DNA of 62,235 nucleotides from Saprospiraceae bacterium (lineage in GTDB: Bacteria > Bacteroidota > Bacteroidia > Chitinophagales > Saprospiraceae), in contig JAHDIN010000016.1 of the NCBI GenBank assembly GCA_020630775.1, forward strand, positions 1,211 through 63,445, in the 5' to 3' direction. The notes beneath the pieces are model-generated. The model saw nothing but the letters and a program-made list of their open reading frames with translations. It did not search any database and was not told the origin of the DNA. This document shows positions 1,783-45,208 of the stretch, piece by piece (the stretch's first letter is position 1; the number at the start of each line of letters is the position of its first letter). Both the position numbers and the translations under genes were made by a program.

Positions 1783-1797
1783 TAGGTAAATCACCTA
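1783..1797 (-). promoter_or_regulatory. TAGGT-N5-ACCTA palindrome, copy 1 (upstream of the OmpA gene)
   Basis: The + strand reads TAGGTAAATCACCTA. The site is 74 bp upstream of the ATG at 1708. Near-identical sites occur at 4941-4955 and 6126-6140, each 65-110 bp upstream of another minus-strand gene. On the minus strand similarity continues past the palindrome, with AATACG followed by a T-run at about +9 to +18. The likely role is an operator for the LuxR/NarL-type regulator encoded at 1812-2459. The binding protein is inferred. Confidence 0.65.
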
Positions 1798-1811
1798 GCA
1801 GAGCAGTAAAA

Positions 1812-2459
1812 CTAGATTTCCAAAAGCCCAAATTTAATAGCTTTTTTTACGAGCCCCGCCGTATTCTTCACATCAAGTTTATCCAGTAAATTCCTACGAT
1901 GGGTATCAACAGTTCTAATACTTATAAACAACTCTTTAGCGATCTCCGGATTTGAATACTCTTGAGCTATTAAGGTTAGAATCTCAGTTTCACGTTTTGT
2001 CAATGGTGTTTCTACCGTCTTATCTTTTGGTTTAGTGCCTTTGGTGATGTGTTTAATCAACACTTGAGAAGCATATTGAGAGTAGAAAGTATCCCCATTA
2101 GAAACTGTTGATATAGCGTTTAACATTTCTTCGCCACCAGCATCTTTAAGGATATATCCTTTAGCACCAATCTCAAGAATCTTTACAATGTAACTTTCCT
2201 CATGATGCATGGATAATGCTAGTATTTTTAAATCCGGATATTGTGTGAGTAATGTCTTCGATAAAGCAATACCGCTTTCTTTACCTATGGTAATATCCAT
2301 TAATAAAACATCCGGCATCCCTGCTTCGTGCATCATAGAGAGCGCTTGTTCAGTATTGCTTGCTGACCAAATAAGTTCACATTTTTGACTCACCTCCATT
2401 ATAGATTTCACACCATCGCGAAACATTTTGTGGTCATCAACTATCGCTACTTTTATCAT
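1812..2459 (-). CDS. LuxR/NarL-family response regulator
   Basis: At 215 aa this is the usual length for the family. The receiver domain (1-120) has the acidic pair D8-D9, the phospho-acceptor D55 in LLMDI, and the conserved lysine K105 in YILKDAG. The C-terminal LuxR helix-turn-helix (about 150-212) contains LTKRETEILTLIA, IAKELFISIRTVDTHRRN and the closing LDVKNTAGLVKKAIKFGL. The gene overlaps the 3' end of the kinase gene by 23 nt, so the pair is translationally coupled. It probably takes phosphate from that HisKA_3 kinase and binds paired half-sites. The TAGGT-N5-ACCTA palindromes ahead of this operon and of both flanking OmpA genes are the best candidates. Family assignment is firm; targets are inferred. 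Confidence 0.93.
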   Translation of the reverse strand: MIKVAIVDDHKMFRDGVKSIMEVSQKCELIWSASNTEQALSMMHEAGMPDVLLMDITIGKESGIALSKTLLTQYPDLKILALSMHHEESYIVKILEIGAKGYILKDAGGEEMLNAISTVSNGDTFYSQYASQVLIKHITKGTKPKDKTVETPLTKRETEILTLIAQEYSNPEIAKELFISIRTVDTHRRNLLDKLDVKNTAGLVKKAIKFGLLEI

Positions 2460-3444
2460 TTAAACTTGATTTTGGAATTTTAAGAATGACTTCTAAGCCC
2501 TTATCAACAATGGGAATAAATTGAATTTCGCCAAGCATAGATTTGGCTCTTGATTTAATATTTGCTATTCCTAAGCCTTTACTCTTTTTTGACATTTTAT
2601 CTGAACCATTATTGAATAAAGACATGTAAAGCGCATCATCATCGACCCATAGCTTAAGTCTAAACAAATCAGCTTGACCATGCTTAATACCGTTTTGTAC
2701 AGCCTCTTGGATAATGCGATAGATATTCAGTGCTACACTTGGACTTATTGTTGGGTTAGAATCTGAAATCTCAATTTCGTTTTGAAATTCTAAACCCGAA
2801 TTGGTTCTTAGTTTTTTCTGAAAATTTTCGATGGCTGAAATCAAGCCAAAATCTAAAATACTCGGTGGCGAAAGATCATGAGAAATCATTCTTACCTCAT
2901 TGGAAACCTCTGAAATATCCGATGACAACTGTCTTAGCTTAAGCTTCATTTCGTCGTCATCGCTTTTAATTATCAAACTATCTAAACCTAGCCTAATGGA
3001 GGATAGATCTGGCCCTACACTATCGTGTATTTCTTTACTTAATCTACTGCGTTCTACTTCTTGTCCTTTGATTATATTTTTCAAAGCCAAGTTTCTTACA
3101 TTAATGATATCTGAGACATCTTGAAAAAAATACAACATGCCTTCCGAAATTTTCTTGCCAGTGAGATTAAGAAATCTGTTACAAAATGAAATCTCTATAG
3201 CTTTGAAGTTTGTGCGGCCCTTAAGATTATTATCTGAAATAATTTTATCAAAGGGGGTTCTATCAATAATTTCTTCGATATGGCGATCAATATAGTACGA
3301 AGGCATTTCTTCTAAATTAAGAAAAAGTAATGTCTGCCCATTAATCATTGTAATATAGCCAGACATATCAGAAACCAATATTCCTTGTGGAAAAGATTCT
3401 GCTAATTGATAAAGTATCTCTAAGCTATGAGTTACAGAATTCAT
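2437..3444 (-). CDS. soluble PAS-HisKA_3 sensor histidine kinase (NarL/DegS class)
   Basis: The 335-aa cytoplasmic kinase has no membrane segment. A PAS domain occupies about residues 8-115 (GILVSDMSGYITMINGQTLL; FFQDVSDI). The HisKA_3 dimerisation domain follows, with the phospho-accepting H140 in LSKEIHDSVGPDLSSIR. The HATPase domain (about 225-330) has the N-box in IIQEAVQNGIKHG and the G-box GLGIANIKSRA. Its start overlaps the upstream RsbT/RsbX-like gene by 4 nt and its end overlaps the response regulator by 23 nt. With no sensor of its own outside the membrane, its input is likely the PAS pocket, or the ATPase/STAS proteins encoded just upstream. That link is an inference from operon structure. 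Confidence 0.92.
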   Translation of the reverse strand: MNSVTHSLEILYQLAESFPQGILVSDMSGYITMINGQTLLFLNLEEMPSYYIDRHIEEIIDRTPFDKIISDNNLKGRTNFKAIEISFCNRFLNLTGKKISEGMLYFFQDVSDIINVRNLALKNIIKGQEVERSRLSKEIHDSVGPDLSSIRLGLDSLIIKSDDDEMKLKLRQLSSDISEVSNEVRMISHDLSPPSILDFGLISAIENFQKKLRTNSGLEFQNEIEISDSNPTISPSVALNIYRIIQEAVQNGIKHGQADLFRLKLWVDDDALYMSLFNNGSDKMSKKSKGLGIANIKSRAKSMLGEIQFIPIVDKGLEVILKIPKSSLNDKSSDS

Positions 3445-4430
3445 ACTAAACTGTAATTTACAACCAAAACACTTGCATCTCCATAGGATCTTACATGCGA
3501 ATTAAAAATGGCATTAGCCATTTCTTGAGAAGACCCTTTAATTTGAAGTTCTTCAGGAAGGGTTTTGATACCATCTGTACAAAATAACATGTGCACGTTA
3601 GCATCAAAACGCAGTTCGAAAACCCCTTCTTTATATTTCATTAAGTTTCCAATTCGACCTCCGACATTGATCAACTTTGCTAGGCCTGACTCATGTACTT
3701 TATAACAATGTGTATCTCCAAAGCCTTTGTAAGTGATTTTTCCTGGCGTGAACCTAGCCATGCTTCCTGTAATACCAACAATATCTGAACTTTCTTTGAC
3801 CAAAGAATTAAGGTTAAAAAACAATTCATCAATTGGTTTTGTATAATTTTTATTTAAATAAGCCTTGCACGCACTTGAGATAGCGTAAGCATCGTACCCT
3901 TGACCCGGACCATCTATCAATGCAACTAAAATAGAATCGCCACCATATTCTTTTATTAAAAATTGATCTCCATTAAAGTCATATTGACCATCGGCTAAAC
4001 TAACGACACCATAATCAACTAGGTCTTTACGAATAGGTCTATGTTTTTCAAGTGTTACCTTAGTACCATGTCCAAGTCTTGAATCGATTTGCATATAATC
4101 TGTACTTCGCTCAGCGACACCCAAACCGATACCCAAACTATTTGAGATCGTGGTGTAGCCTTGATTCATTGCTTCTTGCACGTTCTTAATACCTTTTCCG
4201 AAGTCTTCTATCTCTACCTTTATAACACCACCATTTTTGATTTTTGAAATCGTCATTTCGCCTCCGCCACCATGACGGTATGCATTTACACCGATTTCAG
4301 AAACAGCTAAAATGAGCTGCTCCACATCCAATTCATTAAAGTAGCAACTGTGGGCAAATTGCCTCACTACATCGAAGCAATAGCTTAGATCTTTTGAGTT
4401 CTTTATTTGATATTTTTCTGAGACTAACAT
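3441..4430 (-). CDS. RsbT-like ATPase fused to an RsbX/SpoIIE-like phosphatase domain
   Basis: The 329-aa protein has two parts. Residues 1-130 form a GHKL ATPase of the RsbT/anti-sigma kinase type, with an N-box (SEIGVNAYRHGGGG), a DFGKGI motif and a GIGLGVAERS motif. Residues about 140-329 resemble the PP2C-like phosphatases RsbX/SpoIIE (LVALIDGPGQGYDA; MLFCTDGIKTLP; GDASVLVV). In Bacillus RsbT phosphorylates the STAS protein RsbS and RsbX removes the phosphate; here the opposing activities sit in one chain. Its start shares a nucleotide with the stop of the STAS gene and its end overlaps the histidine-kinase gene. The probable role is to set the phosphorylation state of the adjacent STAS protein and switch the downstream kinase. 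Phosphatase activity is predicted by family resemblance only. Confidence 0.85.
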   Translation of the reverse strand: MLVSEKYQIKNSKDLSYCFDVVRQFAHSCYFNELDVEQLILAVSEIGVNAYRHGGGGEMTISKIKNGGVIKVEIEDFGKGIKNVQEAMNQGYTTISNSLGIGLGVAERSTDYMQIDSRLGHGTKVTLEKHRPIRKDLVDYGVVSLADGQYDFNGDQFLIKEYGGDSILVALIDGPGQGYDAYAISSACKAYLNKNYTKPIDELFFNLNSLVKESSDIVGITGSMARFTPGKITYKGFGDTHCYKVHESGLAKLINVGGRIGNLMKYKEGVFELRFDANVHMLFCTDGIKTLPEELQIKGSSQEMANAIFNSHVRSYGDASVLVVNYSLV

Positions 4431-4873
4431 TATTTTTTTACCAGCTTGAAACCTTGTCTATCGTACACCCAATTGATAGCACTTTTCAAATGCTTTTGGA
4501 TATTTAAATTTTCCATTTCTACACCAGCCGTAATCATGCTTTGAGCAACTACAGGTTTTATACCACAAAAAACGACTTCCATTCCAACCAATTTTAAAAG
4601 CTTATTTAAATTGGTTAAATGCGCAGCTATAGAACTATCGATGATATCAATATTGCTTAGATCTATAATGATTATATCATTTTCATTTCTACTCACTACC
4701 TCGAGCAATGAGTCGATGACTTTCTTCATTCTTACAGAATCTATTGTCCCATAAAATGAAGAAAACAAACAATTATCTGTGATTTCATTAATGACCATTG
4801 GCGCATCGCCTCCGATGATTCTTCTACTAAAGGCCAATTTACGATCTGAATTTTGCGACTTATCTTCTTTCAT
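4430..4873 (-). CDS. STAS-domain partner-switching protein (RsbS/RsbR C-terminal type)
   Basis: The 147-aa protein has a short polar N-terminal leader (1-25) followed by a single STAS domain (about 30-140). The diagnostic stretch IIIDLSNIDIIDSSIAAHL places a serine (S80) directly after the aspartate, at the position phosphorylated in RsbS. RsbR paralogues carry threonine there, so the site is RsbS-like, and there is no RsbR-type globin or other sensor domain. It is the first gene of the operon; its stop touches the start of the ATPase/phosphatase gene, as expected for obligate partners. A palindrome 67 bp upstream (4941-4955) is the likely control site. Family is well supported; which protein the unphosphorylated form binds is unknown. 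Confidence 0.88.
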   Translation of the reverse strand: MKEDKSQNSDRKLAFSRRIIGGDAPMVINEITDNCLFSSFYGTIDSVRMKKVIDSLLEVVSRNENDIIIIDLSNIDIIDSSIAAHLTNLNKLLKLVGMEVVFCGIKPVVAQSMITAGVEMENLNIQKHLKSAINWVYDRQGFKLVKK

Positions 4874-4940
4874 AACTTTCTGTTACAAATATTTAAAATT
4901 GAATGATTTAATTCTTAAGTGAAAAACTGATATTAGAAAC

Positions 4941-4955
4941 TAGGTAATTTACCTA
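4941..4955 (-). promoter_or_regulatory. TAGGT-N5-ACCTA palindrome, copy 2 (upstream of the STAS/kinase operon)
   Basis: TAGGTAATTTACCTA is a perfect palindrome around a central T, 67 bp upstream of the ATG at 4873. Its position ahead of the operon that encodes the response regulator suggests autoregulation. The downstream context on the minus strand (TAATATCAGTTTTTC) resembles that of the other two copies. Confidence 0.65.
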
Positions 4956-5003
4956 TATGCATTTAAATCTATCAAAAAATGGTGATTCATAAAAACAACT
5001 GCT

Positions 5004-5036
5004 AAAAAGTTGCCCCAACAATTACTCATTGGGGCA
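5004..5036 (-). terminator. rho-independent terminator of the OmpA-like lipoprotein gene
   Basis: The 8-bp stem TGCCCCAA / TTGGGGCA (5011-5018 / 5029-5036) has a 10-nt loop. In the minus direction it is followed by ACTTTTTAG. It lies 86 nt past the stop of the gene at 5122. Confidence 0.7.
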
Positions 5037-5121
5037 CTTAACGACCAACTTACTTACATTGATCCTTACGATCAAACGAGATTGTATTGGTTTATGGAAT
5101 GTTTAAAGGATTCTTATCAAC

Positions 5122-6018
5122 TTACTGTTGGGGTTTTAACAAATCATAAAATTGTCCTAGCTTAGGCAATAATATAATCCTTGTTCTTCTATTTGTTGCT
5201 TTGCCTTCTTCTGTTGTATTTTCTGCTAATCTATTGTACTCACCCCTACCTGCTGCTATGAGTTTATCGGGATTGATGCCGTACTTTGTTTGTAATGTGC
5301 GCACTACTTCGGCAGATCTTTTGACACTCAAGTCCCAGTTATCAGCAACGCAACTATTTTTAATAGGAACGTTATCCGTATAACCCTCGACCATTAGGTC
5401 TAAGTCAGATCTGGATTTAGCAATTTGAGCTACTTTTGAAAGCACTTCATCTGCTCTTGCAGTTAAAGTATATCGACCCGAATCAAATAACATTTTATCA
5501 GATAAGTTGACATAGACAACCGTCTTATCGACTTTCACCTCAATATCTTGATCCTCTATTCCTTTGCGGAGTACGGACTTTAAATTGATAGCCAATGCTA
5601 AGTTTAATGAATCAGCTTTATCTTTTGCATTCATTAGATACCTGATATACTGATCTTTCTTTTCTAATTGTCGAATAGTTTGCCCCATATTGTCACTAGC
5701 AGTTTTGGACAATACTGTTAATTCTCCAACTTGAGAGTATTGCTGTTCTGACCTTTGCTTTAATTCTTGAATTTGTTCTTTGTAAGATTTCTCAAGCGTC
5801 GCATTTGTGGTAACTAAGATATCATATCTGTCTTTTTCACTAGCTAGCTTAGCTTGAAGTCTAGATTTTTCTGTGTTACATTCATTGAGATCAAACTCAG
5901 TTGCACTCAATTTATTGACAGCTGAGTCTAATTCGTACCCTAGATCAATATATTTTTTCTTGCTTACGCAAGAAGTCATGAGAAGCGTGAGGAACAAAAA
6001 TGAAAAAGTAAATTTCAT
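5122..6018 (-). CDS. OmpA/MotB-type lipoprotein with a coiled-coil stalk
   Basis: The 298-aa protein begins with a lipoprotein signal peptide whose lipobox is MTSC (Cys17). A long helical, probably coiled-coil region spans about residues 25-150 (many E/K/Q/L heptads, such as LEKSYKEQIQELKQRSEQQ). The C-terminal OmpA domain (about 160-285) has LFDSGRYTLTARADEVLSKV, the motif VEGYTDNVPI and the closing ATNRRTRIILLP. The coiled coil probably spans the periplasm, with the lipid anchor in one membrane and the C-terminus on peptidoglycan. The gene stands alone, with its own terminator at 5004-5036 and a palindrome upstream at 6126-6140. It is a plausible regulon partner of the OmpA-like gene at 566-1708. 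Confidence 0.88.
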   Translation of the reverse strand: MKFTFSFLFLTLLMTSCVSKKKYIDLGYELDSAVNKLSATEFDLNECNTEKSRLQAKLASEKDRYDILVTTNATLEKSYKEQIQELKQRSEQQYSQVGELTVLSKTASDNMGQTIRQLEKKDQYIRYLMNAKDKADSLNLALAINLKSVLRKGIEDQDIEVKVDKTVVYVNLSDKMLFDSGRYTLTARADEVLSKVAQIAKSRSDLDLMVEGYTDNVPIKNSCVADNWDLSVKRSAEVVRTLQTKYGINPDKLIAAGRGEYNRLAENTTEEGKATNRRTRIILLPKLGQFYDLLKPQQ

Positions 6019-6125
6019 GTTTAAAAATTGATTGTTGTATAAAAAAACGTTTAACTAAAATTGATAAAACAAAGTTGCAACCTTAACGAGCTGATACTGT
6101 CCCGTATAAAACGTATTTTTAGTAC

Positions 6126-6140
6126 TAGGTAAAACACCTA
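6126..6140 (-). promoter_or_regulatory. TAGGT-N5-ACCTA palindrome, copy 3 (upstream of the OmpA-like lipoprotein)
   Basis: TAGGTAAAACACCTA lies 107 bp upstream of the ATG at 6018 and 107 bp upstream of the divergent sigma-factor gene at 6248. On the minus strand it continues into GTACTAAAAATACGTTTT, which closely matches the same stretch past copy 1 (AAAATACGCTTTT). It may control one or both divergent genes. Confidence 0.6.
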
Positions 6141-6247: not shown

Positions 6248-6835
6248 TTGGAAGAAGAAATAATAAAGAAACTAAAGTCTAGAGATCAGTCAGGTCTTCA
6301 ATCATTATATAAAAATTATGGTGATGTGCTTTATGGCAATATCCTTAGAGTAACAAACAACGACACCTCTATTGCTCAGGAAATCCTGCAAAATACATTT
6401 CTTAAAATTTGGAAAAACATTGATAAATACGAATCCAAAAAAGGTGGATTATTTACATGGATGAATACAATTGCAAGAAATACAGCGCTTGATAAAGTTA
6501 GATTAGTAGGATATCAACAGAATAAAAAAACCGAATCTATAGATGCCTCCGTATATAGTTTAAACAAGTCTTACATTTCTGCTTCAAAATTAGATGTAGA
6601 TAAATTGTTATCTACACTTGAAGAGAAAAACAAAGTCGTTCTAGATATGATATACCTTCAAGGGTATTCACATCGAGAAACCGCAAAAATACTTGATTTG
6701 CCATTAGGCACCATAAAATCAAGATTGCGCATCGGACTTGGGGCTTTAAGAAAGGAAATTGATAAAGAAAAACATTTGTTTTTTGGTTTTATCATTATTT
6801 TAATCATTATATGCAGCTTAATTAAATGGCTTTAA
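6248..6835 (+). CDS. ECF sigma factor with a hydrophobic C-terminal tail
   Basis: The 195-aa protein is an extracytoplasmic-function sigma-70 factor. Region 2 (about 15-85) carries LYKNYGDVLYGNILRVTNN and the -10 recognition helix region TWMNTIARNTALDKVR. Region 4 (about 115-170) carries YLQGYSHRETAKILDLPLGTIKSRLRIGL. The best start is the TTG at 6248, since no in-frame ATG precedes region 2. After region 4 the chain ends in a strongly hydrophobic stretch (about 176-195, FFGFIIILIIICSLI) that looks like a membrane helix, which is unusual for a sigma factor. The last 10 nt overlap the anti-sigma gene, so the two are coupled. Function is firm; the membrane tail is a prediction. Confidence 0.9.
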   Translation: MEEEIIKKLKSRDQSGLQSLYKNYGDVLYGNILRVTNNDTSIAQEILQNTFLKIWKNIDKYESKKGGLFTWMNTIARNTALDKVRLVGYQQNKKTESIDASVYSLNKSYISASKLDVDKLLSTLEEKNKVVLDMIYLQGYSHRETAKILDLPLGTIKSRLRIGLGALRKEIDKEKHLFFGFIIILIIICSLIKWL

Positions 6836-7590
6836 GAATAGAAGAAATAAGGGAATCAGGACTTCTAGAACTCTATGTTTTAGGAGACTTAAGTGGAGAA
6901 GATCTCTCCACGGTTGAAGCTGCTTTAAGTAAATATCCTGAATTATTAGAAGACATAAGTAGTATAGAACAGGCGCTAAAGATTTATGGTAAAATCCATA
7001 GTGTACCTGCACCAAATATTTCATTTGACAACTTAATTAATAAGCCACTTTCAAGTTCCAATTCCTATAATCCAGCAAGTAGACCTGCGAAAAGCAGAGG
7101 TAGTTGGTTATGGCCTTTAATGTTTATTGGTGCATTAATTGGCGGAGGTTTCATCTACAACAATCTCTCCCAAAAACTAAGCGATTCACAGTCAGATCTT
7201 GTTAATTGCAGGACCAATAGTGAACAAAAAGATGTACAAATTGAATTGCTTCAACAGATAAGCAATCCGAATAATACAATCATAAAGGTAGACCCTACGG
7301 AGAAATACCCAGAGACAAATATTTATTTGCATAACGATAATGCTGCACAAAAGGCGTTTCTACAAATTAAGTCTTTACCACCTATTGCTGATAATCAAAG
7401 CTATCAACTTTGGTCTCTTAAAGACAATGTAGATCCAATACCGCTGGATGTTTTTGAAGGTGATGCCGGCAATATTTTCGAAGTAAACTTTGAATTAAAC
7501 ACTGGGGCTTATGCCATTACTATAGAACCAAAAGGAGGAAGCACCTCTCCTACTTTAGATAATTTAATTGGTGTCTTTCCAGTATCATAG
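6826..7590 (+). CDS. RskA-type membrane anti-sigma factor
   Basis: The 254-aa protein has a cytoplasmic N-terminal anti-sigma domain (1-65; ESGLLELYVLGDLSGEDLSTVEAAL), a single membrane helix (about 93-111, WLWPLMFIGALIGGGFIY), a short helical linker, and a C-terminal periplasmic RskA domain (about 165-254; NQSYQLWSLKDNVDPIPLDVF and the hallmark EPKGGSTSPT). Proteins of this class hold their cognate ECF sigma factor at the inner membrane and release it on signal-dependent cleavage. Its start lies inside the end of the sigma gene (10-nt overlap). The regulon cannot be deduced from this window. Confidence 0.9.
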   Translation: MALRIEEIRESGLLELYVLGDLSGEDLSTVEAALSKYPELLEDISSIEQALKIYGKIHSVPAPNISFDNLINKPLSSSNSYNPASRPAKSRGSWLWPLMFIGALIGGGFIYNNLSQKLSDSQSDLVNCRTNSEQKDVQIELLQQISNPNNTIIKVDPTEKYPETNIYLHNDNAAQKAFLQIKSLPPIADNQSYQLWSLKDNVDPIPLDVFEGDAGNIFEVNFELNTGAYAITIEPKGGSTSPTLDNLIGVFPVS

Positions 7591-7751: not shown

Positions 7752-8315
7752 TTATGCCATGACAGTCAATTGTTCTTTTAATTCCAGAAGCGCTTTTAAC
7801 TCTTTTCGAATTCGTTCTCTCTGATTGATCAAAGTATAATTTATACTTTCTGGAAAGGCTACATTTCTTATAACCTTATCATAATCATCAATCAAAATAG
7901 AAGCACCTCTTTCAATTTCTTCAATTATGGCTTCTACCTGATATTCGTTGGGAACATTATTAATTTTAATATCAATAAACATCCTATGCAAGGTCCCTAA
8001 AAAAGAGGTCTCCACTTCAGGCTTGCCACCTAATGCTTTTATAAAATCTTCTAATCTAGAATGCATTTCGTGTCTTTCTGCAGCATACTTTTTGAGCCAT
8101 TTATTAACAATTGGATTCGAAGAGGCTTTGATTATCTCTAAGTAACCCTTTTCTGCGTCTTGCAATCTGTTCACTAAATCTTGTAAAGAATTCTTTGCTT
8201 TTGTAACAACTTGTTTTTCTTCATTGCTCAACTTATCGAAATCTGCTGACTGCGTTGTTTCATTTGAAAAATTAGGCCAATCAGCTTTATTATTATTTGA
8301 ATTCATCGTAATCAT
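7752..8315 (-). CDS. DUF2383 / PA2169-family four-helix-bundle protein
   Basis: The 187-aa all-helical soluble protein matches the ferritin-like DUF2383 family (often labelled PA2169). It has NSLQDLVNRLQDAEKGY, the middle motif AAERHEMHSRLEDFIKALGG and the GTLHRMFIDIK segment. The first 30 residues are polar and probably disordered. A second ATG at 8306 (MNSNNN) is an equally good start. Members are usually stress- or stationary-phase-induced and often sit near Dps or Usp genes, as here in a broad sense; their biochemical function is not known. No signal peptide is present, so the protein is cytoplasmic. It is a single-gene unit with a strong terminator. Confidence 0.82.
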   Translation of the reverse strand: MITMNSNNNKADWPNFSNETTQSADFDKLSNEEKQVVTKAKNSLQDLVNRLQDAEKGYLEIIKASSNPIVNKWLKKYAAERHEMHSRLEDFIKALGGKPEVETSFLGTLHRMFIDIKINNVPNEYQVEAIIEEIERGASILIDDYDKVIRNVAFPESINYTLINQRERIRKELKALLELKEQLTVMA

Positions 8316-9237
8316 ATTATTTATTTTTTGTTATAAAATTCCAACATTTCCAAATACTCATTCGAGCATCAGGCTTGTAGGATTGAGAGGTATTATATCG
8401 GTTATACTCTTATTTACAATAATGGTCATAGCCGGAGCTAAATGATTTCAGATTGACTGTTAACATTAAGCATTGCTGGATTTGTTATATCAAGCAAGTT
8501 ATTACTGTAATCTCGTAGAAGGCTGGATGTGGATATTCTTGACCTTGCATTAGATACTGTATATACAATATTCGTCCATTTTTTACTACTACTTATTATT
8601 CGTACACGCGGTATCATAGTTACTATTTTAAGTTAAGAAAGAATTTAACCCATGTAGGCTATAAGTATGTCGTATTAACAACATAGCTACCTACAATTAA
8701 TTGAATCGAGTTAATCATCGAATAGAGACGCGTCTATCGCTATTCAGTTTTGGGCAAATATTTAATGACTTGAAGTGAGCTCAAAGTCAATTTAAATAAT
8801 TACGTCAGGTATATCTACCAGATTTTAAACTAATGCTGTAGTGAGGATGTAAGACACTTCTAAGCACTTGCACATGCTTAGATGGAAACACCATGCTTTC
8901 CTTTATCAAGCGTTTTTTCTCGACAGGCAAGTGCTTTATAGGAAAGCTTTTTGATTGTTTATTTTTTTTGTAAGTCACAATAATATAACGCTTCTACACA
9001 ATTATTGTTCAAGAGTTCGCCGAATATTTTCTTTGAGAAAAGTCGTCTTCCTAAATCAAACTGACCGCAAGTAGATGGTAAGAAATAAAATTTATTTTTT
9101 TTTAAGAAAAAAGATCCACCTCTACATCTACCCACGTACATAGATTAAATCAATAGAAATTTCCGCTTGGAATATTTAAATCCCAAAACAGGCTACTGTA
9201 AACAGAAGCGAACCATTGTTAAATTAAAACTATTATC
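8316..9237. other. 920-bp region without a convincing gene
   Basis: Neither strand holds a persuasive coding frame. Weak frames on the + strand (ending at 8445) and on the - strand (8959-9141) lack domain content and start signals. At 8861-8937 there is a group of nested inverted repeats (AAGCACTTGC at 8862 with GCAAGTGCTT at 8927; TAAGCA/TGCTTA at 8861-8880), which could fold as an RNA. The region must also contain the promoters of the divergent genes at 8315 and 9238. Confidence 0.5.
8861..8937. ncRNA. candidate structured RNA element
   Basis: Two 10-nt arms (AAGCACTTGC and its exact complement GCAAGTGCTT) enclose 55 nt. A competing 6-bp hairpin TAAGCA/TGCTTA overlaps the left arm, and GGAAA/TTTCC pairs inside. 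Mutually exclusive helices are typical of switching RNAs, but the family is unknown and the evidence is only base pairing. Confidence 0.25.
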
Positions 9238-12200
9238 ATGACTAAAATTTCACTTTTAAAATTAATTTTTCTGAGTTGTATATTTCTGATAGCTAATAAA
9301 GAAGTACAATCACAAATCGTAATTAATAATCTTTCTTCAGGTCCTGGATCACTTCAATCAGTTATTGAATTGGCTGTTGACGGTGCAACAATTACATTTC
9401 AACAAGGCTTAACAGACATCAGCATAGATTCAGAAATTACACTCTCTAAAAACTTAACAATAGAAGGCAATGAATTATCGCCTGTCACTTTAGATGCAAA
9501 CGGACTTTCAAGAATCTTTAATGTGACATCAGGTAGTATAACTCTAAAAAATATAAATTTCGTAAATGGAACAGCAGATGATGGTGGTGCTATTTTCAGC
9601 GCCGGAGAATCAGTTGTTATTGACAATTGTACATTCTCAAATAACAGTGCTACAGGAACATCTGGTTCAGGTGGTGCTATTTACTCTGACATAGGTTCCT
9701 ATCTTGAAGTTTCTAATTCTACATTTTCAAATAACACCTCTATAAGAGCTGGAGGAGCTATAGAAATAAACAGTAATTCAGGATTGAGTCTTGTTTTAAA
9801 CAATGTTGACTTAAGAGCAAATACAACCGCATCAGCACCAGGAAACGGAGGTGGATTACATATCACTGGCCCTGGTGACTCAATGATCACCGGAGGTACT
9901 GTTTCTGAAAATACTGCATCAGCTGAAGGCGGTGGATTATGGAATGGCACAGGAGTAATGATGATCAACAATGTGACGATTACATCAAATGTGGCAAGTG
10001 GCGCTATGAGCGATCAAGGAGGAGCAGGAGTCTTCAACGCAGGAGGTACAATAGAAATAAACAACTGCACTATAAACGATAACAATGCTACAGGTATGGC
10101 TGGCTCAGGTGGTGGCATCCTTAATGACAAAGGAAGTCTCACTGTCAGCAACACAACTATAAGAAACAATACTGCTGTAAGAGCTGGTGGGGGTATCGAA
10201 GACAATTCTGAAATGGACAAAACACTAGTTTTAAACAATGTAACATTAGAATTAAATACAACTGCAATGAGCCCCGGTAATGGAGGGGGCTTGCACATCA
10301 CTGGACCAGGTAACTCTATGATAAGTGGAGGATTAGTTTCTGAAAACTCTGCATCTGCTGAAGGAGGTGGTCTTTGGAATGGCACAGGTACTATGGTCAT
10401 CGATGGCACGACTATCAGTTCAAATATCGCTAATGGAGATATGAGTGATCAAGGTGGCGGTGGTGTTTTCAATGCCGGTGGTACAATTAATATTCTAAAT
10501 GCATCAATTACAAATAACAGTGCATTAGGATTGTCTGGATCAGGCGGTGGTGTCCTCAACGACCTTGGCGTACTCGAAATATCAAATACAGAAATCTCTG
10601 GAAATACTTCTGCTAGAGCTGGTGGTGGTATCGAAGACAATTCTGCAATGGGTAACACACTTATCTTATCAAATGTTACATTAAACACTAATACCACGGC
10701 AATGAGCCCAGGTAACGGTGGTGGTTTACATATCACAGGACCTGGCGACTGCATGATTACAGGTGGCATGGTTACTGAAAATACAGCTTCAGCTGAAGGT
10801 GGTGGATTATGGAATGGTACTGGTGTCATGGTGATCAATGGAACAACTATAACCGCCAATGTAGCTAGTGGAGATATGAGTGATCAAGGTGGCGGTGGCG
10901 TTTTTAACGCTGGCGGTACTATCAATATTCAAAATGCAATAATTACAAATAACGACGCTGATGGCATGGCCGGTTCTGGCGGTGGTGTCCTCAACGACCT
11001 CGGTGTACTCGAAATATCAAACACCGAAATCTCTGGAAACACTTCTGTAAGAGCTGGTGGTGGTATCGAAGATAACTCTGCTATGGGCAATACACTCATC
11101 TTAACAGATGTTACTTTAAACGCTAATACGACAGCAATGAGCCCCGGTAATGGTGGTGGCTTACATATAACAGGACCTGGCGACTGCATGATTACAGGTG
11201 GCATGGTTACTGAAAATACAGCTTCAGCTGAAGGTGGTGGATTATGGAATGGTACTGGTGTCATGGTGATCAATGGAACAACTATAACCGCCAATGTAGC
11301 TAGTGGAGATATGAGTGATCAAGGTGGCGGTGGCGTTTTTAACGCTGGCGGTACTATCAATATTCAAAATGCAATAATTACAAATAACGACGCTGATGGC
11401 ATGGCCGGTTCTGGCGGTGGTGTCCTCAACGACCTCGGTGTACTCGAAATATCAAACACAGAAATCTCTGGAAACACTTCTGTAAGAGCTGGTGGTGGTA
11501 TCGAAGATAACTCGGCTATGGGCAATACGCTCATCTTAACGGATGTTACTTTAAACGCTAATACGACAGCAATGAGTCCTGGAAACGGTGGTGGTTTACA
11601 TATCACAGGTCCTGGTGATAGTAATATCAAAGGAGGTCTTGTATCTAATAATTTCGCATCTGCAGAAGGCGGAGGCTTATGGAATGGAACTGGATTAATG
11701 GTGGTTGAAGAGGTTGAGGTCGTCAGTAACTCTTGTGGTTTACAAGGTGGTGGTGTATTCAATAATGGTGGTAGCATCGAACTAGTAGCCTCAACTATTT
11801 CTATGAATAATACAGAAGATGCTGAAGGAGATGGAGCTGGAATTTATAACGAAGCACCTGGAAATATGATGATCTTAAGATCAACGATATCCAATAATAC
11901 ATCTGCTGATCAAGGAGGAGCAGTATTTAACAATGGCAATAATTTAATGATAGATGCTTGTACCATCGTATTCAATGAAGCCACTTCTGGAGCGGGGATT
12001 AGTGGTACTTCGATGGTAACTGTAAAGAATACAATCCTTGCAAGTAACAATGCTATGACATCCGCTGATTTAGACGTGATGGTAATGAGTCAAGGGTACA
12101 ACCTTCTTGGCAGTAATGATGATGGTTTATTTACAGAATCTAATACCGATCAAGTTGGTGAAGATCCCAAGGTAATGCAACTTGAAGATAATGGCGGGCC

Positions 12201-12603
12201 TACAAGAACGCATCAATTAGCACAAGGCTCCCCTGCATATAACATGGGAGATCCTAATTCAGATTTTCCAGATCAAAGAGGCACTGCTGTATTTGCAGGC
12301 AGAAGAGATATTGGGTCCTATGAATCAGAAGAAGTATTGACATCGATATTTGAGATTAGTGACGCAACAAATATTGATATTAAGATCTATCCTAACCCAA
12401 CTACAGACTTTCTTTTCATTGAAGGCATGAAAGGACAAAACAATTATGATGTTTTAATCTTTTCAACGGATGGTCAATTAATCCTTAAAGACAACGTCCA
12501 AAACAACGAAAATATAGATCTGACACAGTTAACATCTGGAAGCTATAACATTACGATACAAACCAAACAAGGTGGCTTATCTAAAGAGCTTATAAAAATC
12601 TAA
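9238..12603 (+). CDS. secreted right-handed beta-helix protein with T9SS sorting domain
   Basis: The 1121-aa protein has a signal peptide (1-25, ending VQSQ), then over 950 residues of Gly/Asn/Thr-rich repeats typical of parallel beta-helix proteins of the Pmp/polymorphic type (recurring GGGLWNGTG, GGGVFNAGG, FSNN and SGNTS motifs). It ends in a C-terminal T9SS type A sorting domain (about 1045-1121; IYPNPTTDFLFIEG ... GSYNITIQTKQGG). The central part is built from 145-aa units repeated exactly in register (435 nt each), and the last two full units are almost identical in DNA. The protein is expected on the cell surface or released through the type IX system, perhaps in adhesion. No catalytic residues are recognisable. 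Long proline-rich frames on the opposite strand are by-products of the Gly-rich codons. Confidence 0.85.
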   Translation: MTKISLLKLIFLSCIFLIANKEVQSQIVINNLSSGPGSLQSVIELAVDGATITFQQGLTDISIDSEITLSKNLTIEGNELSPVTLDANGLSRIFNVTSGSITLKNINFVNGTADDGGAIFSAGESVVIDNCTFSNNSATGTSGSGGAIYSDIGSYLEVSNSTFSNNTSIRAGGAIEINSNSGLSLVLNNVDLRANTTASAPGNGGGLHITGPGDSMITGGTVSENTASAEGGGLWNGTGVMMINNVTITSNVASGAMSDQGGAGVFNAGGTIEINNCTINDNNATGMAGSGGGILNDKGSLTVSNTTIRNNTAVRAGGGIEDNSEMDKTLVLNNVTLELNTTAMSPGNGGGLHITGPGNSMISGGLVSENSASAEGGGLWNGTGTMVIDGTTISSNIANGDMSDQGGGGVFNAGGTINILNASITNNSALGLSGSGGGVLNDLGVLEISNTEISGNTSARAGGGIEDNSAMGNTLILSNVTLNTNTTAMSPGNGGGLHITGPGDCMITGGMVTENTASAEGGGLWNGTGVMVINGTTITANVASGDMSDQGGGGVFNAGGTINIQNAIITNNDADGMAGSGGGVLNDLGVLEISNTEISGNTSVRAGGGIEDNSAMGNTLILTDVTLNANTTAMSPGNGGGLHITGPGDCMITGGMVTENTASAEGGGLWNGTGVMVINGTTITANVASGDMSDQGGGGVFNAGGTINIQNAIITNNDADGMAGSGGGVLNDLGVLEISNTEISGNTSVRAGGGIEDNSAMGNTLILTDVTLNANTTAMSPGNGGGLHITGPGDSNIKGGLVSNNFASAEGGGLWNGTGLMVVEEVEVVSNSCGLQGGGVFNNGGSIELVASTISMNNTEDAEGDGAGIYNEAPGNMMILRSTISNNTSADQGGAVFNNGNNLMIDACTIVFNEATSGAGISGTSMVTVKNTILASNNAMTSADLDVMVMSQGYNLLGSNDDGLFTESNTDQVGEDPKVMQLEDNGGPTRTHQLAQGSPAYNMGDPNSDFPDQRGTAVFAGRRDIGSYESEEVLTSIFEISDATNIDIKIYPNPTTDFLFIEGMKGQNNYDVLIFSTDGQLILKDNVQNNENIDLTQLTSGSYNITIQTKQGGLSKELIKI
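9583..11766 (+). repeat. internal tandem repeats, 435-nt period
   Basis: Equivalent points of successive units (the codon before SPGNGGGLHITGPG) fall at 9832, 10267, 10702, 11137 and 11572, a constant 435 nt or 145 codons. About 400 nt of the unit beginning at 10739 recur almost unchanged from 11174; I see only four single-base differences (acaccgaa/acacagaa, ctctg/ctcgg, acactc/acgctc, aacaga/aacgga). Flanking units are more diverged. Confidence 0.9.
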
Positions 12604-43546: not shown

Positions 43547-45208
43547 ATGAATAATTATTTAACTCCGATTAAAAGATTTAATCGCCTTTTAAGTCTTGAG
43601 AAGAAAGATATTACGCAAGTATATATCTATGCTTTCTTTAATGGTCTAGTCAACCTCTCTTTACCGCTGGGCATTCAGGCTATTGTCAATTTGATACAAG
43701 GCGGTCAGATCACTACTTCCTGGTATATCCTTGTGGCTTTAGTGATTGCTGGCGTTGGTTTAGCTGGTACACTCCAGCTATTACAACTAAGAATCGTGGA
43801 GAATATCTCGCAAAGGATATTCAGTAATGCCTCATTCGAATTCGCTTTAAGAATACCTAAGATCAAATACGAGTCTCTAAGAAATTATTACGGCCCTGAC
43901 TTAGCCAATAGATTCTTTGACACTTTAACCATCCAGAAAGGCTTACCTAAAATTTTAATTGATTTTTCGCTAGGTATATTTCAGGTGATCGTGGGGCTGA
44001 TTGTACTCAGTCTTTATCATTCGTTCTTTATAATATTCAGCGTCCTACTCGTAATAGTAGTATACCTCATTATTGCCGCTACGGGACCTAAAGGTTTGAG
44101 AACGAGCCTAAAAGAGTCAACTCAGAAATATAAAATCGCCTTTTGGCTTGAGGAGATTGCTAGAAGTAAGTTATCATTCAAACTGGCTTCTGACAATAAA
44201 TTAAGCTTGACCAAAACGGACACACACGTAGATAAGTATTTAGATTCAAGAGAAGATCACTTTAGAGTAATTATCAATCAGTCTGTTTATCTGATCATTT
44301 TTAAGATCATGGTAGCAGCAGGTTTGTTGATCACAGGAAGTATTCTTGTTTTTAATGATCAAATGAATATCGGACAATTTGTTGCCGCAGAAATCATTAT
44401 CATCTTAATCATTGCATCAGTAGAAAAGATTATCAAAACCATCGAGTCGATCTATGATGTTTTGACAGCATTAGAAAAAATTGGTTACGTATTCGACAAA
44501 CCTATGGATGAGTTCAATGGTGTAAATCTGAAAGAATCCGATGATTCATTTAAAATAACGGTTGAGAATGTATCTTACCGTTATGATGATGCCCCAACAC
44601 AAACACTTGACAACGTTACTTTCGACATCCCCAATAATACATCTGCAATCATCTCTGGACCACCAAGTTCAGGAAAATCGACACTTTTAAAAATAATATC
44701 AGGCATAATGGACCCTTCAGATGGAATCATTAAATTCAATGACTTCCCGATGAAGTCTTTGGACTTTGATAACCTAAAAGAAGAAATAGGTTTTTGTATT
44801 AGTAATGGAGAAATTTTTCACGGCACTATACTTGAAAACATCTCATTAAACAGAGATAAAGCTACTCCAGAAAATATAAGTAGAGCTATAAATATAACTG
44901 GACTTTCGCCATACCTTTCAAAAATGCCGCTTGGATTTAATACTGTTGTTGACCCTGAGGGCAAGAAAGTACCAACCAATGTTCAAAACAGAATACTCCT
45001 TGCAAGAGCTATGGCCACAAACCCTAAACTATTGATTCTTGAAGACCCTTTGGAGCATATTAATCACAAAGAGAAGATTGAAATCATTGAAGCCATTACG
45101 GCATCAGAAAACAGATGGCACATACTCGTATCGTCAGTAGACGACTCATGGAAAGACTATATCGACAAAATAATTGAATTAAATAACGGTAGAATTATAG
45201 CTGCATAA
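43547..45208 (+). CDS. ABC exporter, fused membrane and ATPase domains, with degenerate signature motif
   Basis: The 553-aa half-transporter has an N-terminal six-helix membrane domain (about 20-300) and an ATPase domain (about 325-553). Walker A (GPPSSGKST, 371-379) is intact. The LSGGQ signature is replaced by KKVPTNVQNR before ILLARAM, and Walker B reads LLILEDPLEH (E499-D500), so the usual D-E order is reversed. This fits a divergent Bacteroidota branch of HlyB-like exporters; ATP hydrolysis may be altered. It lacks an N-terminal peptidase domain. The HlyD gene starts 10 nt later, and TolC follows. Confidence 0.88.
   Translation: MNNYLTPIKRFNRLLSLEKKDITQVYIYAFFNGLVNLSLPLGIQAIVNLIQGGQITTSWYILVALVIAGVGLAGTLQLLQLRIVENISQRIFSNASFEFALRIPKIKYESLRNYYGPDLANRFFDTLTIQKGLPKILIDFSLGIFQVIVGLIVLSLYHSFFIIFSVLLVIVVYLIIAATGPKGLRTSLKESTQKYKIAFWLEEIARSKLSFKLASDNKLSLTKTDTHVDKYLDSREDHFRVIINQSVYLIIFKIMVAAGLLITGSILVFNDQMNIGQFVAAEIIIILIIASVEKIIKTIESIYDVLTALEKIGYVFDKPMDEFNGVNLKESDDSFKITVENVSYRYDDAPTQTLDNVTFDIPNNTSAIISGPPSSGKSTLLKIISGIMDPSDGIIKFNDFPMKSLDFDNLKEEIGFCISNGEIFHGTILENISLNRDKATPENISRAINITGLSPYLSKMPLGFNTVVDPEGKKVPTNVQNRILLARAMATNPKLLILEDPLEHINHKEKIEIIEAITASENRWHILVSSVDDSWKDYIDKIIELNNGRIIAA

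Follow-up and report, generated by a model that had tools for sequence, protein, structure and literature searches.

Among described promoters, those that come closest to the ones discussed here are the class III promoters of ComA in Bacillus subtilis (srfAA and rapA), at which a distal inverted repeat is joined, in the class II position, by a proximal element of degenerate sequence (PMC4797271). The closest described gene set is the minimal Gram-negative stressosome RsbRSTX of Vibrio vulnificus, with two-component genes downstream (PMC9237108). We analyzed a 62,235-nucleotide stretch from a probably uncultured Saprospiraceae bacterium (NCBI GenBank assembly GCA_020630775.1, contig JAHDIN010000016.1, positions 1,211 to 63,445), hereafter the window, in which three copies of the palindrome TAGGT-N5-ACCTA lie upstream of genes for two OmpA-like proteins and of a stressosome-like operon that includes a histidine kinase (HK) and a NarL-type response regulator (RR). 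Comparison with related sequences makes it likely that these palindromes are the upstream half of a two-site operator, through which the RR would activate its own operon and neighboring envelope genes.

The system described here and ComA share a LuxR/NarL-family RR, a distal inverted repeat (here at a predicted class I position), a degenerate proximal element and a housekeeping-sigma promoter, which is a predicted one here. They differ in the half-site (TAGGT/TACGC here, TTGCGG for ComA), in the spacer (5 against 4) and in the proximal element, which is a direct repeat for ComA and here, conserved where one would expect it, looks like a degenerate inverted repeat of greater width; phylum and promoter type differ as well. 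The likeness to V. vulnificus lies in an RsbR-type STAS protein, an RsbT-type kinase and an RsbX-type phosphatase that stand beside two-component genes and not beside a sigma factor. Unlike that system, the operon studied here has a single short STAS protein without a sensor domain, a fused kinase/phosphatase and a NarL-type RR whose promoter code can be identified. Autoregulated NarL-type regulators are as such a known kind of system. In the open-licence literature, at the level of titles and abstracts, we found neither the operator sequence nor the two-site module, its persistence under exchange of inputs or its tie to stressosome-like genes, and no title or start of an abstract there pointed to an RsbT-RsbX fusion from Bacteroidota. 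Little is known of what Gram-negative stressosome modules control. Here, a promoter code that can be read from sequence ties a stressosome-like operon to envelope and stress genes in a group with little genetics, which makes the output testable and offers, in the composite described below, a way to seek the regulon in related genomes.

The palindrome occurs exactly at 1783–1797, 4941–4955 and 6126–6140 and nowhere else in the window, as a sequence-only reading of this DNA had reported. The expected number of exact words was 0.02 (s.d. 0.14; ~0.07 had been estimated in that reading), and three or more copies were seen in none of 100 dinucleotide shuffles. With up to two mismatches allowed, 26 matches were found where 22 were expected; this is chance level, so that only the exact words stand out and no further near copies can be claimed in the window. 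The distances to the start codons of the minus-strand genes measured 74 bp (1783), 67 bp (4941) and 107 bp (6126), in agreement with the 67–107 bp given earlier. We also ran the genome scan that the sequence-only reading had proposed. The assembly, a metagenome-assembled genome of 3.10 Mb in 84 contigs that is 53.9% complete and in which the window starts at C9:1211, contains eight exact copies. Four of these form one 6.4 kb cluster on the window's contig, all intergenic and upstream of minus-strand genes; the fourth, at C9:993–1007, lies ~0.2 kb to the left of the window and 92 bp upstream of a minus-strand open reading frame (ORF) of 242 amino acids with a weak CARDB match. The remaining four fall within ORFs that are 100 codons or longer, and the composite model gives them scores below 0, compared to 43–54 for the cluster copies, which belong to the 15 sites used to build that model. 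The sequence-only reading had held that many copies within coding regions would speak against a regulon; the four coding copies lack the module and do not carry that weight. The longer pattern TAGGTRWWWYACCTA is matched by all four cluster copies and by nothing else in the assembly. A degenerate right-half pattern, run in 25 genomes, returned known sites and single extra matches, the extra one in the window being at 44772 within an ORF.

Downstream of the palindrome we observed a module with three parts: the distal palindrome itself, a degenerate second copy ~25 bp further on, and a predicted Bacteroidota-type −7 box (AnnTTTG). Among the 21 sites listed first, which had been picked by palindrome and not by TTTG, TTTG starts at palindrome position 67/68 in 15 (chance ~0.011 per site); 19 of the 21 entered this count, the one-mismatch sites L010:8217 and L014:7296, both without TTTG at 67/68, having been omitted (L and G numbers denote loci and genomes, respectively). 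From the TTTG-anchored alignment of these first sites L012:14082 and L025:10632 were left out as well. In the alignment, an A stands three bases before TTTG in 15 of 15 anchored sites and the second element is conserved at −45 to −27. The four cluster palindromes keep a nearly fixed distance of 67–68 letters to the predicted promoter signal.

We built a composite model from 15 sites of seven genomes and scanned it over further loci. In 31 chosen loci, 53 composites reached 25 bits or more, and 51 of them were kept for a table; L154:8594 (in a locus without the RR) and L201:8197 were omitted, the latter as marginal. L201 scored 25.3 at first and 16.6 under a stricter pre-filter, the value used for the count of RR loci below. 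TTTG stands at 65–69 in 47 of the 51 tabulated sites, and these 47 carry T at −42 in 44 cases and G at −39 in 42. The composite consensus reads TAsGy-N5-rsCTA for the distal element, AAATAsGyTTTT..rCtGA for the proximal element, and AnnTTTG. Because TTTG and the proximal element are part of the score by which the sites were selected, the table is a description of the module and no fresh test of it. The proximal element reads TAGGTG in some genomes (AAATAGGTGTTTTACAGG in G131) and the distal one reads TACGCAAATTGCGTA in L020, variants that suggest that the two elements are versions of one site.

In the window, every element of this module lies on the minus strand. The OmpA1 promoter has its distal operator, TAGGTGATTTACCTA, at 1783–1797 (exact match; composite score 54.3), the proximal degenerate copy, AAATACGCTTTTCAACCTT, at 1757–1775, as placed by the 51-site alignment anchored on TTTG, and a −7 box (nAnnTTTG) predicted from the site alignments at 1727–1734. 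For the operon promoter, the distal operator TAGGTAAATTACCTA at 4941–4955 (exact match; score 43.5) is followed by the proximal copy AATATCAGTTTTTCACTTA at 4916–4934, the least consensus-like of the three in the window, and by a predicted −7 box at 4886–4893, both from the site alignments. The OmpA2 promoter likewise combines the distal operator TAGGTGTTTTACCTA at 6126–6140 (exact match; score 48.6) with the proximal copy AAATACGTTTTATACGGGA at 6100–6118 (51-site alignment) and a −7 box predicted from the site alignments at 6070–6077. The sequence-only reading had noted a shared word with a T-run downstream of all three palindromes; this holds for 1783 (TAAAATACG) and, in the form TAAAAATACG, for 6126, and fails at 4941, which reads TAATATCAGTTTTT. 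The rest of the window (8001–62235) contains no composite, the best score being 7.5. The fourth palindrome, the second operator copy, the fixed distance to the −7 box and the stressosome-like upstream genes are additions to that reading.

The palindromes might also be chance words, remnants of mobile repeats, RNA hairpins or terminators, and genome-wide counts of the word offer this explanation some ground. The reversed-pattern control gave 13 matches in the genome against eight for the bare palindrome, and the refined word was no commoner than its reversed control in 100 relatives (35 vs 53). The bare word is not enriched genome-wide; what is unusual is its clustering and promoter context, and we rejected the bare 15-mer as genome-wide evidence. 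Against a chance or repeat origin stand distances to the proximal element and to TTTG that hardly vary across many genomes, and palindromes upstream of orthologous genes whose proteins are only 49–72% identical, with none of 224 shuffles reaching 25 bits; the 5-bp stem without an adjacent T-run is not terminator-like. We consider explanations of this kind extremely improbable.

The published consensus of the Bacteroidota sigma-A −7 box is TAnnTTTG at −12 to −5 (PMC9723704). In our alignments AnnTTTG stands at a fixed position, and the first base of the box is G/C in 38 of 47 sites and T in seven. Taking the published position of the box, the distal site is predicted to be centered at about −67/−68 and the proximal site at about −42, and these are the usual places for an activator that contacts RNA polymerase. 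An earlier candidate arrangement, which took element 2 for a −10 box (TAAAAT, TAATAT) and placed the palindrome within the spacer, was dropped once the TTTG at constant distance had been found downstream.

Palindromes near promoters are typical repressor sites, and the same positions can be read in terms of repression, with the bound RR or another protein blocking the promoter until a signal relieves the block. By the inferred positions, the −33 region and the proximal copy overlap, and a protein bound at this point could equally obstruct RNA polymerase. However, the best-conserved element, the palindrome, is centered ~60 bp upstream of the TTTG of the −7 box, which is far for simple occlusion. 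A clear −33 element is not conserved, and no TTTG at −33 stands out in the 47 aligned sites, as expected of activator-dependent promoters. We regard a repressor operator as unlikely and favor activation from the two sites.

The genes of the operon follow one another on the minus strand in the order STAS, kinase/phosphatase, HK and RR, with OmpA1 next and OmpA2 upstream. The RR (1812–2459), the likely operator binder from its domains and the comparison below, consists of a REC receiver and a LuxR/GerE helix-turn-helix (Response_reg, 1.2e-22; GerE, 4.8e-18). Its best sequence matches among solved structures are VraR, NarL, DevR and DesR, which we take to be regulators of other phyla; they share the REC plus GerE helix-turn-helix architecture and are likened here by protein sequence. 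Domain searches assigned HisKA_3 and HATPase_c to the HK (2437–3444). Pfam and a family profile characterize the kinase/phosphatase (3441–4430) as a fusion of an N-terminal SpoIIAB/RsbT-type HATPase with a C-terminal RsbX/SpoIIE-type PP2C domain: the first part of the profile resembles the anti-sigma F kinase SpoIIAB (1e-14) and the second RsbX (3w40; 9e-13), and Pfam SpoIIE was matched in nine of 12 family members, not including the window's own protein. The RsbR/RsbS-type STAS protein (4430–4873; domain and PDB comparison) is closest in the PDB to stressosome RsbR/RsbS chains, with RsbR chains at 1e-15. Its residues S46 and S80 fall in columns that hold Thr in PDB RsbR chains (Ala at one or the other in some entries) and that presumably correspond to the Listeria phosphoacceptors T175 and T209. 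Ser occupies position 46 in all of 16 STAS sequences, among them the window's, and position 80 in 15 of them, with Thr in the other. Ahead of the HK and RR, the operon encodes a set that resembles a stressosome, made up of an RsbR-type STAS protein and an RsbT/SpoIIAB-RsbX-type fusion. A sensor-domain RsbR and a separate RsbS are not in the operon, which has one STAS gene of 147 amino acids (a second STAS was not sought elsewhere in the half-complete genome), and for this reason we do not claim a full stressosome.

The likely targets are OmpA1 (566–1708), an OmpA-family protein with a carboxypeptidase-regulatory-like domain by domain search, and OmpA2 (5122–6018), which is OmpA-like with a lipoprotein-type signal (LMTSC) by translation and domain search. 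In the mechanism we propose, a stressosome-like switch composed of the RsbR-type STAS protein with its two conserved Ser residues, the fused RsbT/SpoIIAB-type kinase and the RsbX-type phosphatase would feed the HK, which would in turn phosphorylate the RR. The phosphorylated RR would bind as tandem dimers on both elements and recruit RNA polymerase to housekeeping-sigma promoters. It would in this way raise expression of its own operon, a positive autoregulation, together with that of OmpA1, OmpA2 and the CARDB-like protein. Control of the HK by the stressosome-like proteins is something we infer from conservation of the operon and from published RsbRSTX modules beside two-component genes.

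To compare relatives, we scanned one genome for each of 84,980 species with a kinase/phosphatase alignment, which returned 17 loci: 15 in Saprospiraceae/Saprospirales records (Flavilitoribacter included), one in Chitinophagales and one in Spirochaetaceae. A single kinase/phosphatase sequence used as the query over the same genome set gave no confirmed relative. Exact palindromes are present in six of the 17 loci (L011, L012, L013, L014, L018 and L025), and L010 has a one-mismatch palindrome upstream of STAS. L022, the locus of Flavilitoribacter nigricans, has the operon and gave no composite in the model scan. Exact or one-mismatch copies precede orthologues of STAS, OmpA1, OmpA2, CARDB or other genes, and the orthologous proteins encoded downstream are only 49–72% identical. 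An MscS-type channel gene directly follows the RR in L011, L012 and L014. In relatives the module also precedes genes for a universal stress protein or an extracytoplasmic function (ECF) sigma factor; in L012, the site in front of a universal stress protein gene lacks TTTG in the usual position.

We next considered how far the module is linked to the RR. Among 398 genomes of the family, the kinase/phosphatase is rare, with 18 genomes at E ≤ 1e-20 (at most five candidates scored per genome), and the RR was found in 35 at E ≤ 1e-58 (seven candidates scored per genome), the window's own genome included in both counts. A composite of at least 25 bits is present in the fetched locus of 15 of the 28 RR genomes that were not used for the model. 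It was found in 12 of 13 such loci with an RR identity of at least 56% and in three of 15 with at most 55%, a cut chosen after the scores had been seen. The same threshold was reached by none of 224 dinucleotide shuffles (maximum 12.6) and by none of 16 control loci (maximum 20.0). The linkage was also approached from the palindrome. By eye, we assigned 30 of 81 palindrome matches to the refined form, while the other 51 did not show it. Sixteen of the 30, spread over 14 loci, come from genomes where the kinase/phosphatase was not found; the 16 control loci were drawn from the 51. An RR homologue (44–67% identity) is present in seven of the 14 loci with refined palindrome and TTTG, compared to none of the 16 control palindrome loci (Fisher p = 0.0017).

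The module is retained at loci that contain the RR but neither STAS nor kinase/phosphatase. In G030 the RR (67% identity) is preceded by a GAF histidine kinase, without STAS, kinase/phosphatase or a window-type HK at the locus, and the operon still begins with TAGGTAATATGCCTA, the proximal element and TTTG. G131 and G220 have, of the proteins used as queries, just HK and RR at the locus (OmpA1 too in G220), and the sites are present. The recognition helix of the RR is conserved in palindrome-linked RRs, with some changes in more distant ones. That the RR binds the palindrome and autoregulates had been put forward in the sequence-only reading; the 15 of 28 RR loci and the persistence in these three genomes lend this proposal comparative support. 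We give roughly even chances to a broader reading, in which the module would be the DNA output code of a Gram-negative stressosome-type switch whose STAS protein and fused kinase/phosphatase would drive the RR. In Saprospiraceae the RR would then keep a portable two-site cassette through changes of its input genes, be they stressosome-like, for a GAF kinase or for a plain kinase, and of its targets, which would range over OmpA proteins, CARDB, a universal stress protein and an ECF sigma factor.

OmpA2 homologues offer a further comparison, being present in 62 of 100 relatives (E ≤ 1e-50). A composite was found in three (G000, G001 and G007) of 30 OmpA2 loci examined and in none of the other 27 (maximum 7.7). 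G009, of the same genus and with no RR at E ≤ 1e-50, has an OmpA2 that is 66% identical and lacks the module; in the RR-bearing genomes G014, G030, G033 and G036, OmpA2 lies apart from the RR and its loci have no composite.

Several results weigh against an RR that acts through these sites. In the OmpA2 comparison, G001 has the RR and no site directly before OmpA2 in its 3.9 kb stretch; the composite lies beyond OmpA2, and the comparison is therefore suggestive only. No composite was found at 13 of the 28 non-training RR loci (four of these stretches are shorter than 8 kb), including G269 at 65% RR identity. Conversely, an RR homologue is absent from the stretch fetched for seven of the 14 loci with a refined palindrome. 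Two of the seven (G007 and G378) are on contigs shorter than 5 kb and five (G029, G165, G203 and two loci of G265) are not; the second G265 locus scores 32.8. Ten of the 14 loci had been examined before the controls were fetched, and the four fetched alongside the controls are all without the RR. A 5.1 kb contig of G070 carries two composites and no RR, and G007 has two sites on its OmpA1/OmpA2 contig in an 86%-complete assembly in which neither the RR (E ≤ 1e-50) nor the kinase/phosphatase was found. In a second clade (L015–L019) no site was found in front of the STAS operon, even though the recognition helix of the RR is the same; sites occur elsewhere in four of the five loci, not in L017, and autoregulation is consequently not general. 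The helix is equally conserved in RRs of the site-less loci G014 and G033 and so does not discriminate. Since the genes are syntenic, their co-occurrence partly reflects shared ancestry and not independent events. Finally, the preference for activation over repression comes entirely from predicted positions.

A different DNA-binding protein, such as the ECF sigma factor at 6248–6835 or an unlinked regulator, could read the palindrome, with linkage to the RR due to synteny only. Several of the points just listed are what this explanation would lead one to expect, namely the synteny of the genes in several relatives, the recognition helices conserved equally where the site is absent, the 13 of 28 RR loci without a site and the seven of 14 palindrome loci without the RR. 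However, the palindrome is kept in G030, G131, G220, G268, G211, G396 and G166, where the RR homologue was the only match among 11 window-derived queries, apart from HK in G131 and G220 and OmpA1 in G220. Among the loci of the 17 relatives, L015 alone (43%) gave an orthologue-like match to the window's ECF sigma factor, and a palindrome 60 bp from a housekeeping-type −7 box is unlike an ECF promoter. We judge a reader other than the RR improbable, and continue to favor the RR.

In the second clade, and also in relatives at a greater distance, an ECF sigma factor gene was found as a target. It was not recovered in G000 (E ≤ 1e-20) with the query used; we rejected it as a general target, and it lies outside the window's regulon as far as seen. 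The window does encode an ECF sigma factor (with a TTG or later start) and an RskA-type anti-sigma factor at 6248–7590, divergent from OmpA2. The site at 6126 lies between OmpA2 and this ECF gene, and there is no composite promoter toward the sigma factor (score 0.3).

Composites were also found outside the family. In G070, from another family of the order, they lie at L084 2220 and 3396, and the genes that they precede are one for a PAS-SpoIIE-like phosphatase, an assignment made by eye, and a DUF6089 outer-membrane-like gene, which suggests that the promoter code extends beyond the family. Upstream of OmpA2 or STAS in the second clade, we noticed by eye a GTGACC word (in several, TTGGTGACCA) instead of the TAGGT operator, often with CTCTCT or a similar sequence ~20 bp later. 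It occurs at L015 ~11401, L016 ~3127 (minus strand) and 7523, L017 ~6214, L018 ~9133, L019 ~11236 and L021 ~2742, and another regulator may bind there.

IS200-type Y1 transposase-like genes border the regulon in L010 (9078–9506), L011 (16250–16678) and L012 (14966–15391). They directly follow the universal stress protein genes in L011 and L012 and, in L010, a gene at 8254–9078 without a Pfam match. Just to the left of the window, at L009 ~1051–1250 on contig C9, a run of N is flanked on both sides by the same ~50-bp sequence and is probably a scaffolding gap with duplicated ends. Near the regulon, the window encodes a PA2169-family four-helix-bundle protein (DUF2383) at 7752–8315, with no composite before the gene in the scanned 8001–62235. 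Further along, at 9238–12603, lies the gene for a secreted-looking protein of 1121 amino acids, in whose translation long and very similar internal repeats are visible by eye.

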